A DNA stretch of 37,806 nucleotides from Alkalinema sp. RU_4_3 (GTDB taxonomy: Bacteria; Cyanobacteriota; Cyanobacteriia; Leptolyngbyales; Leptolyngbyaceae). Shown one piece after another: positions 16,844-33,488 of the stretch. The notes under the pieces are model-generated. The model had not been told where the DNA came from. It searched no databases and saw only the letters and a list, made by a program, of their open reading frames with translations. Each line of letters starts with the position of its first letter. The first letter of the stretch is position 1. The stretch spans positions 1 to 37,806 of the forward strand of contig JAAUSA010000021.1 in the NCBI GenBank assembly GCA_012031975.1, read 5' to 3'. The translations under genes and the position numbers were made by a program.

Positions 16844-16877
16844 GGCCTCCCCATAGGCCTACGTTTAAAACGCAGAA

Positions 16878-16971
16878 GACCCGGATTCCACGCCTGTCCC
16901 GAGCATCCCGTATTGCTGCTACCTTCCGGTCCTGACAAGATTTGGGCGTCGAAACCGCATGGGTCCGAGTC
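16878..16971 (-). ncRNA. ffs: Small signal recognition particle RNA (4.5S type)
   Basis: RNA core of the signal recognition particle, which binds Ffh (and FtsY) to target membrane proteins. On the minus strand the universally conserved apical segment is present: GTCAGGACCGGAAGGTAGCAG with the GGAA tetraloop, followed by the AGCA internal-loop side. The ends pair as GACTCGG with CCGGGTC, and GGCGT pairs with ACGCC further in, giving one long hairpin of about 94-100 bases. The true ends may lie a few bases outside. A promoter is visible immediately upstream in minus orientation. Confidence 0.9.
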
Positions 16972-29935: not shown

Positions 29936-31841
29936 ATGGAAGTTGATTTTCAGACGATCGAAACGCGCAAAGCCACCCTCGAAAAGGCCCGCGCCGAACT
30001 GAAACTACATTTCGTAGGCATCGACGAGATCATCGATGAACTGCTCAATTACATCCAAATCTGGTACCTAATGCCGGAACTCTTGACGCGCCCGATCATC
30101 GTCAACCTCTGGGGCATGACCGGCGTCGGCAAAACCGATCTAGTCCGCCGCCTCGTCAAATGCCTCGACTACCAGGATCGCTTCGCCGAAGTTGAACTGA
30201 GCAACGTTGATTCCACCTCCTGGCGCAGCTCCGTCTCCGAGGTGTTGGAATCCAACGCGATCAACGATGGCAAACCTGCGATCGTCCTGTTCGACGAAAT
30301 CCAACGCTTCAACACCCTCAACCCCGACGGCACCCCGATCCAAACCACCAAGTTCACCGATTTCTGGGAAATGCTCAGCGACGGTAAATTGTCGAAACGC
30401 AGCAAGGACGACCTCGACTATTACATCCAGGACTACCTATTCCAGCAAAAGGATCTCAAACGCCGCCGCGATCGCGGTGAAGAAGATCTCGACGAAAACC
30501 CCATGATGGGTTTTTACGAAGCGCAGCAGTTGAAAACCATGCTGCAAATGGAGCAGGACTTGTCTGAAATTGCTGACATGCCGCGATCGCAAGTCATCGA
30601 ACAAATCCAACTGGCCAAGCGCAAGAAAAAGGTCTACGAACCCGTGGACCATGCCAAAACCCTAATTATCATCAGCGGCAACCTAGACGAAGCCTTCTCC
30701 ATGGCCCGCCAGATCTCCGAATCCGATGTGGATGCAGATATTTTCCATGCGTTCACCCAAAAGGTAACCATGGTGGATATTAAAGATGCCCTCAGCACCA
30801 AGTTCCGCCCCGAGCAGGTGGCAAGGTTTGGCAATATTCACTTGATCTATCGCAGCTTGAAGCGCTGTGACTTTGAGCGATTGATCGCGATCGAAATCGA
30901 TCGCATCATCACCAGCACCCGCGAGAAATTCGGCGTCGATCTAAAAATCGGCGATGGCATCCACGAACTCATCTACCGCAACGGCGTCTTCCCTGTCCAA
31001 GGCGTCCGCCCAGTGTTTTCCAGCGTAATCGATATTTTAGAAACCAATCTCTCGAAGTTTCTCTTTACGGCCTTGATGGGTCGGCAAACGACGATCGAGA
31101 TGGCCTATGATTTCGAAAAGTCCGTGATCAAGGCCAAGATCGGCCCGGTGGAAAGTGACGTGCCCTTCACTGGCCGCATTGACAAGATCCGCGAGAGTAA
31201 CCTGGCGGACACGATCGCCAATATCAGCGCCCATGAAGCGGGCCATGCCGTGGCCTACATGGTGTTGTTTGGTCTGGCTCCCTTGCAGTTGAAATCGAAG
31301 CTAGCCAACAGCTATGCCGGCGGTTTCACCCTTCCCCCACCAAATCCACGAAACCAAGGAAAATATCCTGCGCAAGATCAAGATCTATCTAGCCGGGGGC
31401 CTGGCCGAGGAGCTGGTGTTTGGGGCTGGCAATGCTTCCATGGGTCGGGTACACGATCGCGAACAGGCCACGAGTCTGGCGATCGACTACCTGCGCAAAT
31501 ACGGTTTCGATGAGCATTACCAGGCCCATTACACCCTGGAATATGCCTACGAAATGGATAAGACTTCCACTGACAAAGACGTGGAACGCATGATCACGCG
31601 TCTGGTTGTTGAAACCACGGAGCTATTGAAGGATCAGCGATCGCTGCTCCAGGAGTTGTCTTTGAAACTGGCGGCGGCGGGGAATTTGGAGGCGATCGAG
31701 GTGGCGGAAATTGGTGTCAAGCACGGTGTTGATGTGGTGGTCAAGGAGGAGGGCTATTTGCAGATTCCTGCCTACGAAGCGCTCCTTGGTGGTGAGAGTC
31801 TGACCATTACAGCTCCAGCAACGCCGCGCGCGACAGTGTAA
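29936..31841 (+). CDS. Soluble AAA+ (Clp-clade) ATPase fused to M41 FtsH-type peptidase
   Basis: Predicted ATP-dependent zinc protease of about 634 residues with no membrane helix. The ATPase has Walker A GMTGVGKT (60-67), Walker B AIVLFDE (115-121), a charged insertion (about 155-235), sensor 1 LIIISGN (243-249), a KFRPEQVARF segment with candidate arginine fingers and sensor 2 GVRP (356-359). These resemble ClpB/ClpX rather than FtsH. The peptidase follows, with SAHEAGHAVAY (431-441) as the zinc site, then LAGGLAEELVFG and HDREQATSLA, whose Asp matches the third ligand of FtsH. One extra C in the run 31334-31338 shifts frame inside the peptidase; removing it joins GGFTLP to HQIHETKEN. It follows tex by 75 bases. 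Confidence 0.8.
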
Positions 31842-32048: not shown

Positions 32049-32311
32049 AAAGTTATCCTCAAACGACAAGCCCCATGGCTGGAAGTATCTTCGATGACGG
32101 AGGTCTGATCGATGGCAAGATTGCTCAGGTCGCATCGGAGGGATTGGCTGATGTAAAACTTGAGGAGTGCGTCCACGGACATGTCTTTGGTTTTGGCAAC
32201 TTTTTGGAGGGAGGCGATCGCGCTTTTGGGCAATTTTAGAGTTAAGGTTTCGGTTTCCCTGGGACGCCAGTGAATTTGTACCTGTTCTCCATCGATTTCA
32301 TGTTGACTCAT
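32045..32311 (-). CDS. Antitoxin-like small protein (ribbon-helix-helix-like)
   Basis: An 88-residue protein whose middle part (ETLTLKLPKSAIASLQKVAK, then DMSVDALLKFYISQSLR) has the strand-helix-helix pattern of a small cyanobacterial family that I associate with CopG/RHH-like antitoxins. The C-terminus (from about residue 68) does not look like that family, so the product may be truncated or frameshifted. The TGA at 32045-32047 overlaps the next ATG, consistent with translational coupling. A single missing base would alternatively fuse the two frames. No toxin is recognisable in the window. Confidence 0.5.
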   Translation of the reverse strand: MSQHEIDGEQVQIHWRPRETETLTLKLPKSAIASLQKVAKTKDMSVDALLKFYISQSLRCDLSNLAIDQTSVIEDTSSHGACRLRITL

Positions 32312-32588
32312 GGCTTAGGTGGCGTACGGTGTCCATGGTTCTATGATAGCGATGAACTGGGCAAAAGTGAGGATAGTAGAAGCTGATGGTGCGATGGTCT
32401 TCGACCGACCGCAGGTCATCGTACTCTTTTCATTCATCCTGAGTCCTCTATCTGAAGACCGATTTCGCGGACATAAGTTTAGATCGCTCCCTCTGGTTAA
32501 TCTTTGTGGAGAGGATGGTTGGGGTTGTCCAGATTTTCTATAATGGGGGCGAATTAGCTGATAGTTGTCGTTTGCTTCCCAATCTGCC

Positions 32589-32759
32589 ATGTCTGAAGAA
32601 AGTAAGTACGTCCCCACGAGCATTGAGAAGGTTTTTGAGTTGCTGGATACCAAGCTGATTTCCCTCGGCTTGCCTGCAACCAACATTGTCCGCCGTTGGG
32701 GTGAATTACACTTAGTATTGTGGAGAGTTGAATCTCTTTTCTCGCGTCGAGACTTGTGA
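32589..32759 (+). CDS. Possible small ORF or gene fragment
   Basis: A 56-codon frame with a plausible amphipathic start (YVPTSIEKVFELLDTKLISL) ending in SLFSRRDL. No ribosome binding site is clear and I recognise no family. Its place beside a transposase remnant makes a broken gene as likely as a real one. Confidence 0.25.
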   Translation: MSEESKYVPTSIEKVFELLDTKLISLGLPATNIVRRWGELHLVLWRVESLFSRRDL

Positions 32760-32830
32760 ACTGTAGCACGCGCCAGTTCTGAGAATTTCTAATTTTTTGT
32801 AACCGCCCCACTTCCTACGACATGATCGGC

Positions 32831-32908
32831 CCCCCAGCCCCCAAGTTTGGGGGAGCCGGAGTCATATTGGCTCAAAGTCCCCCAGAATTGGGGGATTTAG
32901 GGGGCCTG
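32831..32908. repeat. REP-like pair of G/C palindromes
   Basis: Two short palindromes of the same design: CCCCCAA-GT-TTGGGGG at 32838-32853, and CCCCCA-GAAT-TGGGGG at 32879-32894. They are separated by a short AT-containing spacer and flanked by further runs (CCCCCCAG on the left, TTTAGGGGG on the right). Such arrangements are typical of repetitive extragenic palindromes moved by RAYT transposases, and a RAYT remnant lies next to it. Confidence 0.7.
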
Positions 32909-33066
32909 CCAGCCTTGCCACTCCCAATCAACTTACTGTTCCAACAATCGATCGCATACAACAACACATCCCGGCAATGCGATCGCGTCAACAAAAAGTC
33001 CCGATTATTACAACGCGACGTAACGTGATAACAATAGCCCGAAACAAACAAACGGATTTTACGCAT
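32872..33066 (-). pseudogene. REP-associated tyrosine transposase (RAYT) remnant
   Basis: The frame begins MRKIRLFVSGYCYHVTSRCN and continues NRDFLLTRSHCRDVLLYAID. This is the N-terminal region of IS200-like/RAYT transposases, where the HVTSR strand precedes the HUH catalytic core. After about 44 residues homology stops (near 32935). The rest of the frame is simply translation of the neighbouring REP palindromes, ending at 32872. The HUH motif and catalytic Tyr are missing, so this copy cannot be active. Confidence 0.7.
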
Positions 33067-33191
33067 AATCCGTTATTCAGGGGTTGGCGATCACCACCAG
33101 CTCTAAATCACAGCCGATCGAGTAGACCCTGAAGTTAGTTGAATTTGTGCTAGAATCAAAACGATCTCTATTCAACCTGAGCTAGCAACCT

Positions 33192-33488
33192 ATGACGCTC
33201 TCCCTAGATCACCCCAAACTAACCTCCATCGAACAATCGATCGGCAGCGAAGTCTTTGCCTACCTCCAGCACCAGCAAGAACTCTTTGACCAAGCCCGAT
33301 CGCAACTGCTCCAAACCCACCCAAGACAGTTCGTCTGGTTTGAGAATGGCGTTGTTCTGGACAGCGATCGTGACGAATCAGCCCTCTTCCTCCGCACCCA
33401 AACCCAGCGCCCCGAGCAACCCTTCTTCCTGGCCCAAGTTCTGCAAGAAGATCCAAAGCTAGTGGTGCGATCGGGCTTTCTAAGATAA
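33192..33488 (+). CDS. Small hypothetical protein, DUF5678-like
   Basis: A 98-residue soluble protein. The central QFVWFENGVVLDSDRDE and the following PFFLAQVL strand resemble the small DUF5678-type proteins that cyanobacteria often encode directly upstream of a retropepsin-like protease, which is the arrangement here. Function is unknown. No membrane segment or metal site is visible. The next gene starts 15 bases downstream, so the two are almost certainly cotranscribed. Confidence 0.6.
   Translation: MTLSLDHPKLTSIEQSIGSEVFAYLQHQQELFDQARSQLLQTHPRQFVWFENGVVLDSDRDESALFLRTQTQRPEQPFFLAQVLQEDPKLVVRSGFLR

Follow-up and report, generated by a model that had tools for sequence, protein, structure and literature searches.

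A DUF559-linked, REPIN-like element probably lies within a decayed RAYT locus in the window analyzed here, a stretch of 37,806 nucleotides from Alkalinema sp. RU_4_3; the RAYT resembles subclass 2.1 and belongs to a family that is normally convergent to a GUN4-domain gene. The Y1 transposase locus has lost its catalytic part, and the palindrome pair found there is one of dozens of dispersed copies of an element whose partner would be a standalone DUF559 gene encoding a small Vsr-like nuclease, not the RAYT. Comparisons were made with a set of 42 genomes from one cyanobacterial order, and designations such as G001 and G006 refer to genomes of this set. The features of the locus, preceded by one RNA gene located elsewhere in the window, are as follows.

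16875-16971, minus strand: bacterial small SRP RNA (Rfam RF00169, 60.8 bits).
32700..32759, plus strand: possible remnant of a GUN4 gene 3' end (GELHLVLWRVESLFSRRDL*), from by-eye likeness to GELP-tail-SLLSRRDL ends elsewhere.
32733..32790, minus strand: block B3, conserved RAYT-GUN4 intergenic region (TGCTACAGTTCACAAGTCTCGACGCGAGAAAAGAGA), promoter-like by eye, from a 36-site alignment.
32810..32824, minus strand: block B2 in the flank conserved 3' of RAYT (CATGTCGTAGGAAGT), common to G006, G022, G029 and named relatives.
32828..32906, minus strand: REPIN-like palindrome pair, GGCCCCCTAAATCCCCCAATTCTGGGGGACTTTGAG, spacer, CTCCGGCTCCCCCAAACTTGGGGGCTGGGGGGCC, from repeat search, folding and genome copies.
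32907..32943, minus strand: 37 nt, possibly the outer end of an extended element (GTGGCAAGGCTGGC), C-terminal RAYT codons (WNSKL), or both.
32944..33066, minus strand: RAYT/Y1 transposase relic, codons 1-41, matching the relatives' profile at E=4.4e-13 (positions 2-42 of 250).
33051..33074, minus strand: 8-bp inverted repeat across the RAYT start codon, AACGGATT..AATCCGTT, z -4.3.

The minus-strand ATG at 33066 opens a 64-aa ORF (33066-32872) of which the N-terminal part is RAYT-like. When the 42 genomes were searched with the 46-aa fragment, matches were obtained in nine genomes other than Alkalinema sp. RU_4_3 (10/42 with that genome itself). The best was to a 248-aa open frame of G006 (68% identity, E=5.7e-16), and a profile of 77 relatives matched the relic with 54 bits at positions 1-43. 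All five relatives tested matched Y1_Tnp (PF01797; E 2e-17 to 8e-19), and intact relatives, about 245 aa in length, carry the HUH motif SNHVH (NHVH), W-E and the tyrosine motif YIH[AG]NP. An alignment of seven intact relatives led to the named RAYT loci, of which the best 80 of 181 are considered below. When the relic fragment alone was compared with curated libraries, Pfam returned nothing better than an AT-hook at E=0.13 and NCBIfam returned REP_Tyr_transpos at E=0.054, its 13.4 bits falling short of the cut-off of 80. With these libraries sub-threshold, the RAYT identity of the relic follows from the matches to intact relatives and to the 77-member profile. A preliminary description of this locus, made from the sequence alone, had proposed an N-terminal RAYT fragment running directly into the palindromes. 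The first part of that proposal is borne out by the G006 and profile matches; the second holds for the reading frame but not for the homology, which stops near codon 41 (nt ~32944) and is separated from the palindromes by about 37 nt. The positions of the HUH and catalytic tyrosine motifs both lie past the fragment end (codon ~41), so the relic lacks these motifs and the copy in the window cannot act as a transposase. The inverted repeat across the start codon could be aligned in G006; as a trait of the RAYT family such a hairpin was rejected, with z<-2 in 2 of 80 relatives (best 80 of 181).

With respect to the palindromes, the arms at 32838-32854 and 32878-32894 show 88% complementarity; folded as single-stranded DNA, the 79-nt pair (32828-32906) gave z=-3.4, in agreement with the two matched G/C palindromes first described. 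The pair is termed REPIN-like because a short spacer separates two inverted G/C palindromes and because copies of it are dispersed. Dispersal was observed directly: a genome-wide search gave at least 51 matches to the pair in Alkalinema sp. RU_4_3 (40 of 107 first-look candidates scored), hence the palindromes are not unique, and manual merging of rows reduced these matches to 41 distinct sites. Both full pairs and solo halves are present among the copies. The exact 15-mer CCCCCTAAATCCCCC occurs 35 times in this genome, a count for which the reversed-pattern control is worthless because the pattern reads identically backwards. No GTAG/CGTC (GT[AG]G) foot is present in the pair, both ends of which are GGCC, and no target-site duplication was apparent by eye in the flanks of the listed copies.

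Alignment of the 3' flank places the palindrome pair within the RAYT relic. Three blocks, B1 (GGTGCCAGGTAACGGATCGC), B2 (TGTCGTAGAAA) and B3 (TGCTACAGTTTACAAGTCTCTGCGCGAGAGAAGAGA), make up a flank common to the C-terminal RAYT fragments of G015, G016, G022, G028, G029, G031, G032 and G041, and the same flank was seen in most, not all, of the 54 intact named relatives listed. In the window, B2 and B3 come directly after the pair (32824-32735). The B3 core pattern (32735-32757) was found at 24 sites in 17 of the 42 genomes, including once in Alkalinema sp. RU_4_3, while the reversed pattern used as a control gave 0 sites. Because B2 and B3 resume beyond the pair, most codons past ~41 and B1 are gone, with the pair in their place; and because what follows the pair immediately is the 3' flank of intact relatives, the locus decayed in part through an insertion or deletion in which the pair was involved. 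The earlier suggestion that the site marks the end-point of an insertion or deletion by which a REP destroyed its own transposase survives as to the event, not as to the palindromes being the RAYT's own REPs. No empty site was found by way of the neighbouring 98-aa gene, which occurs in 6 of the 42 genomes and never beside RAYT, and the plus-strand frame at 32700..32759 gave no match in Pfam. The 37 nt at 32907..32943 may be RAYT codons left where an internal deletion fused codon 41 in frame with codon 192, the outer end of an extended element, or both. The residues WNSKL can be aligned at RAYT position ~192, an alignment reached by 0-61 of 500 shuffles in pairwise comparison with seven relatives and by 222 of 2000 shuffles when a profile is used; in part, these nucleotides also resemble the longer ends of other copies of the element, the flanks of which are partly conserved (~GTTGCGGCAATGGCTGG).

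Broken RAYT genes were encountered elsewhere as well. The full-length RAYT profile gave matches in 19 genomes, several with partial matches only, and judged from such matches RAYT decay is common in the order. In G015 and G032 a palindrome-DUF559-palindrome cassette lies between N-terminal and C-terminal RAYT remnants, with several palindrome copies around the remnants of G032, and G001 has a palindrome-bearing DUF559 cassette adjoining B3 at the place expected for RAYT. Separately, C-terminal RAYT fragments standing alone, with their first residue between 160 and 216 of 250 and the conserved 3' flank behind them, were observed at six loci in several genomes.

DUF559 (PF04480) was matched at E<=1e-10 in 27 of the 42 genomes; 37 matches are listed, 30 of them with loci, and among the matches listed the gene is of low copy, 1-4 per genome. 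Genes were divided into standalone ORFs (<250 aa, n=22) and long ORFs (n=8), and palindromes were scored within 300 nt of the domain. Bracketing of the standalone genes was directly observed, with a palindrome on both sides of 16/22 and on at least one side of 20/22, compared with 2/8 and 4/8 respectively for long ORFs. Palindromes on both sides were seen at 0/70 testable intact RAYT relatives (from the best 80 of 181; same 300-nt distance), 1/30 Y1 loci and 0.07% of 4020 random windows. The only DUF559 match in Alkalinema sp. RU_4_3 has a palindrome pair upstream and a palindrome downstream. In G019, G020, G029 and G030 the DUF559 gene separates a left from a right half, as in the window pair but with a gene as spacer, and in other genomes, G026 among them, the gene stands between fuller palindrome groups. 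The palindrome count was higher in genomes with a standalone DUF559 gene (median 27, n=23) than in those without (median 5, n=19), with p=0.004, p=0.0009 when G024 was left out and p=0.0074 by within-genus permutation, tests which are incompletely independent as the compared genomes are kin. Contrary cases were found in both directions: G007, G014, G017, G018 and G028 have 20-85 palindromes and no standalone DUF559 at E<=1e-10, and G011, G024 and G025 have DUF559 yet only 0-2 copies of the 15-mer. Judged by this genome comparison, the palindromes track standalone DUF559 genes, not RAYT.

To compare gene and palindrome types, 26 DUF559 genes (the 22 standalone genes and four from RAYT loci) were sorted by N-terminal motif. 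Of the 12 genes of subfamily A (RIRG), 10 were accompanied by palindromes with an A-loop (CCCCCAATTCTGGGGG type) and the other two had no C4/G4 palindrome of the counted kind, while those of subfamily B (LPYN, LRQRPI) had mostly T-loop palindromes (CCCCCTTAAAAAGGGGG type; T-loop 9/12, A-loop 1, other 2). Two genes outside subfamilies A and B had T-loop palindromes. For the 20 A or B genes with an A or T class the association gave a Fisher p=1.2e-4, a value that is optimistic because the genomes are related. A similar division was seen among dispersed palindromes. In stretches of subfamily A genomes (G019, G023, G029, G030), which were chosen arbitrarily, the A:T ratio was 24:1, and the stretches of G012 and G035, also A genomes, held neither A- nor T-loop palindromes. 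In stretches of B genomes (G001, G005, G026), those of G001 and G005 picked mostly at known sites, the T:A ratio was 55:11, with ten of the eleven A-loop exceptions in G005. Palindromes of neither class were set aside in these counts (5, 1, 5 and 4 in the A genomes, 13, 3 and 2 in the B genomes, and 1 in G012). In Alkalinema sp. RU_4_3, the DUF559 gene of which belongs to subfamily A, A-loop and T-loop palindromes numbered 51:0, with 8 of neither class. As typed by these motifs, palindrome class matches DUF559 subfamily.

The association was also examined in named records. A tblastn search with the Alkalinema sp. RU_4_3 DUF559 protein returned 34 plasmid records, of which 22, from Cyanobacteria, Proteobacteria and Deinococcus, were tested for a G/C hairpin with a stem of 7 or more within 200 nt of the gene. 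The baseline was 114 ordinary genes in three 50-kb stretches from three records, and it includes genes without open spacers; against it, hairpins stood on both sides of 8/22 DUF559 loci and 3/114 ordinary genes (Fisher 1.6e-5), on either side of 20/22 and 25/114, and left and right flanks were alike at 11/22 and 1/114 (Fisher 1.6e-9). A 56-nt near-identical inverted repeat lies on the two sides of DUF559 in Deinococcus psychrotolerans, and CCCTCTCCC..GGGAGAGGG-like arms are found at DUF559 in Sinorhizobium meliloti, Azospirillum lipoferum and D. aetherius. No hairpin beside DUF559 was found in Synechocystis B12 (one of two plasmids) or Novosphingobium. The window region itself matches DUF559-carrying plasmids of Picosynechococcus PCC 7002 and Pseudanabaena ABRG5-3 (five of 13 matched records checked). 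With respect to the protein, a DUF559 profile built from 17 relatives matched PDB 3hrl (endonuclease-like protein) at E=2e-31 and PDB 3r3p ('Mobile intron protein'), which we take to be I-Bth0305I, at E=4e-7; the match to Vsr was weak. Residues E79, D81 and H85 are among the invariant positions and D68 is almost so, a pattern in keeping with a nuclease of the PD-(D/E)XK/Vsr-type fold class. The link between DUF559 and the palindromes thus draws on comparison in one order plus 22 named loci.

That another Y1 transposase, lost or missed in the draft, spread the palindromes, with DUF559 a passenger in palindrome-rich spacers, is unlikely. Some Y1_Tnp is present in 37 of the 42 genomes, DUF559 is of low copy, and the Alkalinema sp. 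RU_4_3 assembly is incomplete, a 97%-complete draft in 362 contigs from which an intact RAYT could be missed for that reason; the search for one in this genome, as the preliminary description had proposed, came back empty, with no Y1_Tnp at E<=1. A passenger role would not, however, predict bracketing on both sides, the likeness of left and right flanks or the match of subfamily to class, and the Y1 loci were bracketed only once in 30. Of the five genomes missing Y1_Tnp, the three with DUF559 have 35, 85 and 174 palindromes and the two without DUF559 have 0 and 0.

Very improbable is the relationship first proposed, in which the palindromes are the REPs of the relic's RAYT and REP transposition destroyed the transposase that made it. 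The relic does adjoin a REPIN-like pair, REP insertions within tnpA-REP genes are on record for subclass 2.4 in the part of PMC6006769 that treats it, and palindromes are enriched upstream of intact RAYT relatives (24 within 500 nt upstream vs 4 downstream). Set against this, none of the 70 testable intact relatives is bracketed and 11/70 have a palindrome on one side only (from the best 80 of 181), the pair is without a GTAG/CGTC foot, and the family resembles the REP-less subclass 2.1. Palindrome number is also unrelated to RAYT presence (medians 9 in the 19 genomes with and 16 in the 23 without, p=0.92) or to Y1 count (Spearman -0.11, p=0.47), and palindromes are abundant in the three genomes noted above that have no Y1 at all. 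The claim that RAYT acts on these palindromes thus found no backing, and RAYT ownership is most likely wrong. Spread with no mobilising enzyme, by recombination or replication slippage, with recombination between copies deleting RAYT segments, would suit the solo halves that occur besides pairs in Alkalinema sp. RU_4_3 and the several copies around the G032 remnants, and is likewise highly unlikely, since it does not account for palindrome class and number going with DUF559.

Under the preferred reading, a DUF559-linked element within a decayed RAYT locus, we infer both a mobilising role of DUF559 and the sequence in which the events took place. The DUF559 protein would nick or cut at the palindromes, which would then copy or move as REPs do with RAYTs; by analogy with that system, whether DUF559 cuts its cognate palindromes and so drives their copying appears to us evenly balanced. 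One palindrome copy would have inserted into a RAYT gene that was already dispensable, or undergone recombination across it, and we lean towards such an event in a gene already free to decay. In a wider sense a large class of G/C palindromic repeats hitherto without an owner, the cyanobacterial CCCCCTAAATCCCCC and the proteobacterial and Deinococcus CCCTCTCCC..GGGAGAGGG type, could have DUF559 (Vsr-like) nucleases as cognate enzymes; these would provide a second, non-HUH route to REP/REPIN populations, convergent with RAYT-REPs; we would give this generalization about equal chances of being right or wrong.

REP-like palindromes are common in bacterial genomes, and those of the GT[AG]G type have a known enzyme, RAYT. 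If the tie between DUF559 and palindromes is true, it would be a second enzyme family linked to REP-like repeats, and DUF559, still of unknown function in Pfam, would gain a role. Like REPINs/BIMEs and the REPtron, in which a RAYT is flanked by REPs, the present element occurs as inverted pairs in tens to hundreds of copies and flanks a class-matched, low-copy gene; it differs in lacking the GT[AG]G foot, and its partner gene encodes a DUF559 nuclease where those systems have a Y1 HUH transposase. Vsr-like homing endonucleases are carried by introns or are free-standing; the DUF559 profile matches one of these (PDB 3r3p, above), but the DUF559 gene differs in lying between palindromes, which are also found as isolated copies. 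Untagged cyanobacterial palindromic repeats (Elhai 2008, as cited in PMC3733652) are described there as short, dispersed and without GTAG/CGTC tags, a likeness to the present palindromes that is one of description alone. The protein partner of untagged repeats, the cyanobacterial ones included, is posed as an open question in that part of PMC3733652, and a class-matched nuclease partner makes this question testable. The RAYT family resembles RAYT group 1/TnpA-REP subclass 2.1 (PMC6006769), overlapping TIRYT (PMC3733652), in NHVH, W-E, Y1_Tnp, a length of ~245 aa with a C-terminal extension and lack of REP flanks. This likeness was judged from the published motif table of PMC6006769 (NHVH, W[EQ], ~238 aa, no REPs); the part of that paper dealing with the subclass describes finding no REP-like flanks. 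The tyrosine motif differs at one place, YIH[AG]NP here against YIELNP or Y[IV]HLNP in the tabulated subclass 2.1 (PMC6006769), and the present family differs further in facing GUN4 across a conserved block at 64/80 loci (best 80 of 181). In openly licensed PubMed Central literature, searches for DUF559 (alone and with cyanobacteria, mobile element or REPIN) and for palindromic repeats with homing endonuclease found, as far as titles and abstract openings show, no DUF559-palindrome link, and those on GUN4 with transposase/REP or NACHT found no published RAYT-GUN4 pairing.

The same convergent downstream gene was present at 68 of the 80 RAYT loci (best 80 of 181), and at 8 of the remaining 12 there are 306 nt or less beyond the RAYT gene. 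GUN4 was the domain found in 64 of the 68 convergent proteins and FGE-sulfatase in 3. GUN4 genes have been named as parts of suspected conflict systems, in the passages of PMC7159879 and PMC8195603 that mention them, and the convergent arrangement seen here connects these effector genes with a single-strand-DNA transposase of the Y1 type. The interval consists of B1-B3 and a length-variable tract which, read in the RAYT sense, is G-poor (10% G in 2540 nt taken together from tracts >=30 nt at 52 of 67 sites, vs 25% in the 120 nt upstream) and through which the GUN4-side reading frames run. B3 is also found beside GUN4-type genes without a RAYT family member. As a separate observation, in G033 (contig C143, 791-1408) the place of RAYT beside B3 and a GUN4-type gene is taken by another kind of Y1_Tnp protein, 206 aa long (E=5.7e-12). 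Judged by eye from the alignment, B3 looks like a promoter; no conserved pairs indicative of RNA structure were found in it, and a sigma-70 consensus scan of 32500-33200 gave 1 site, which is not B3, vs 0.9 in shuffles.

Rfam, applied to the window and eight loci, returned SRP RNA only; a SNORD57 hit in 32250-33200, obtained at a low threshold (E=0.002), was below the gathering score and was rejected as chance. At 29936-31841 on the plus strand, an AAA+/FtsH-like frame (by eye) is split into two overlapping ORFs of 525 and 175 aa, a possible frameshift.
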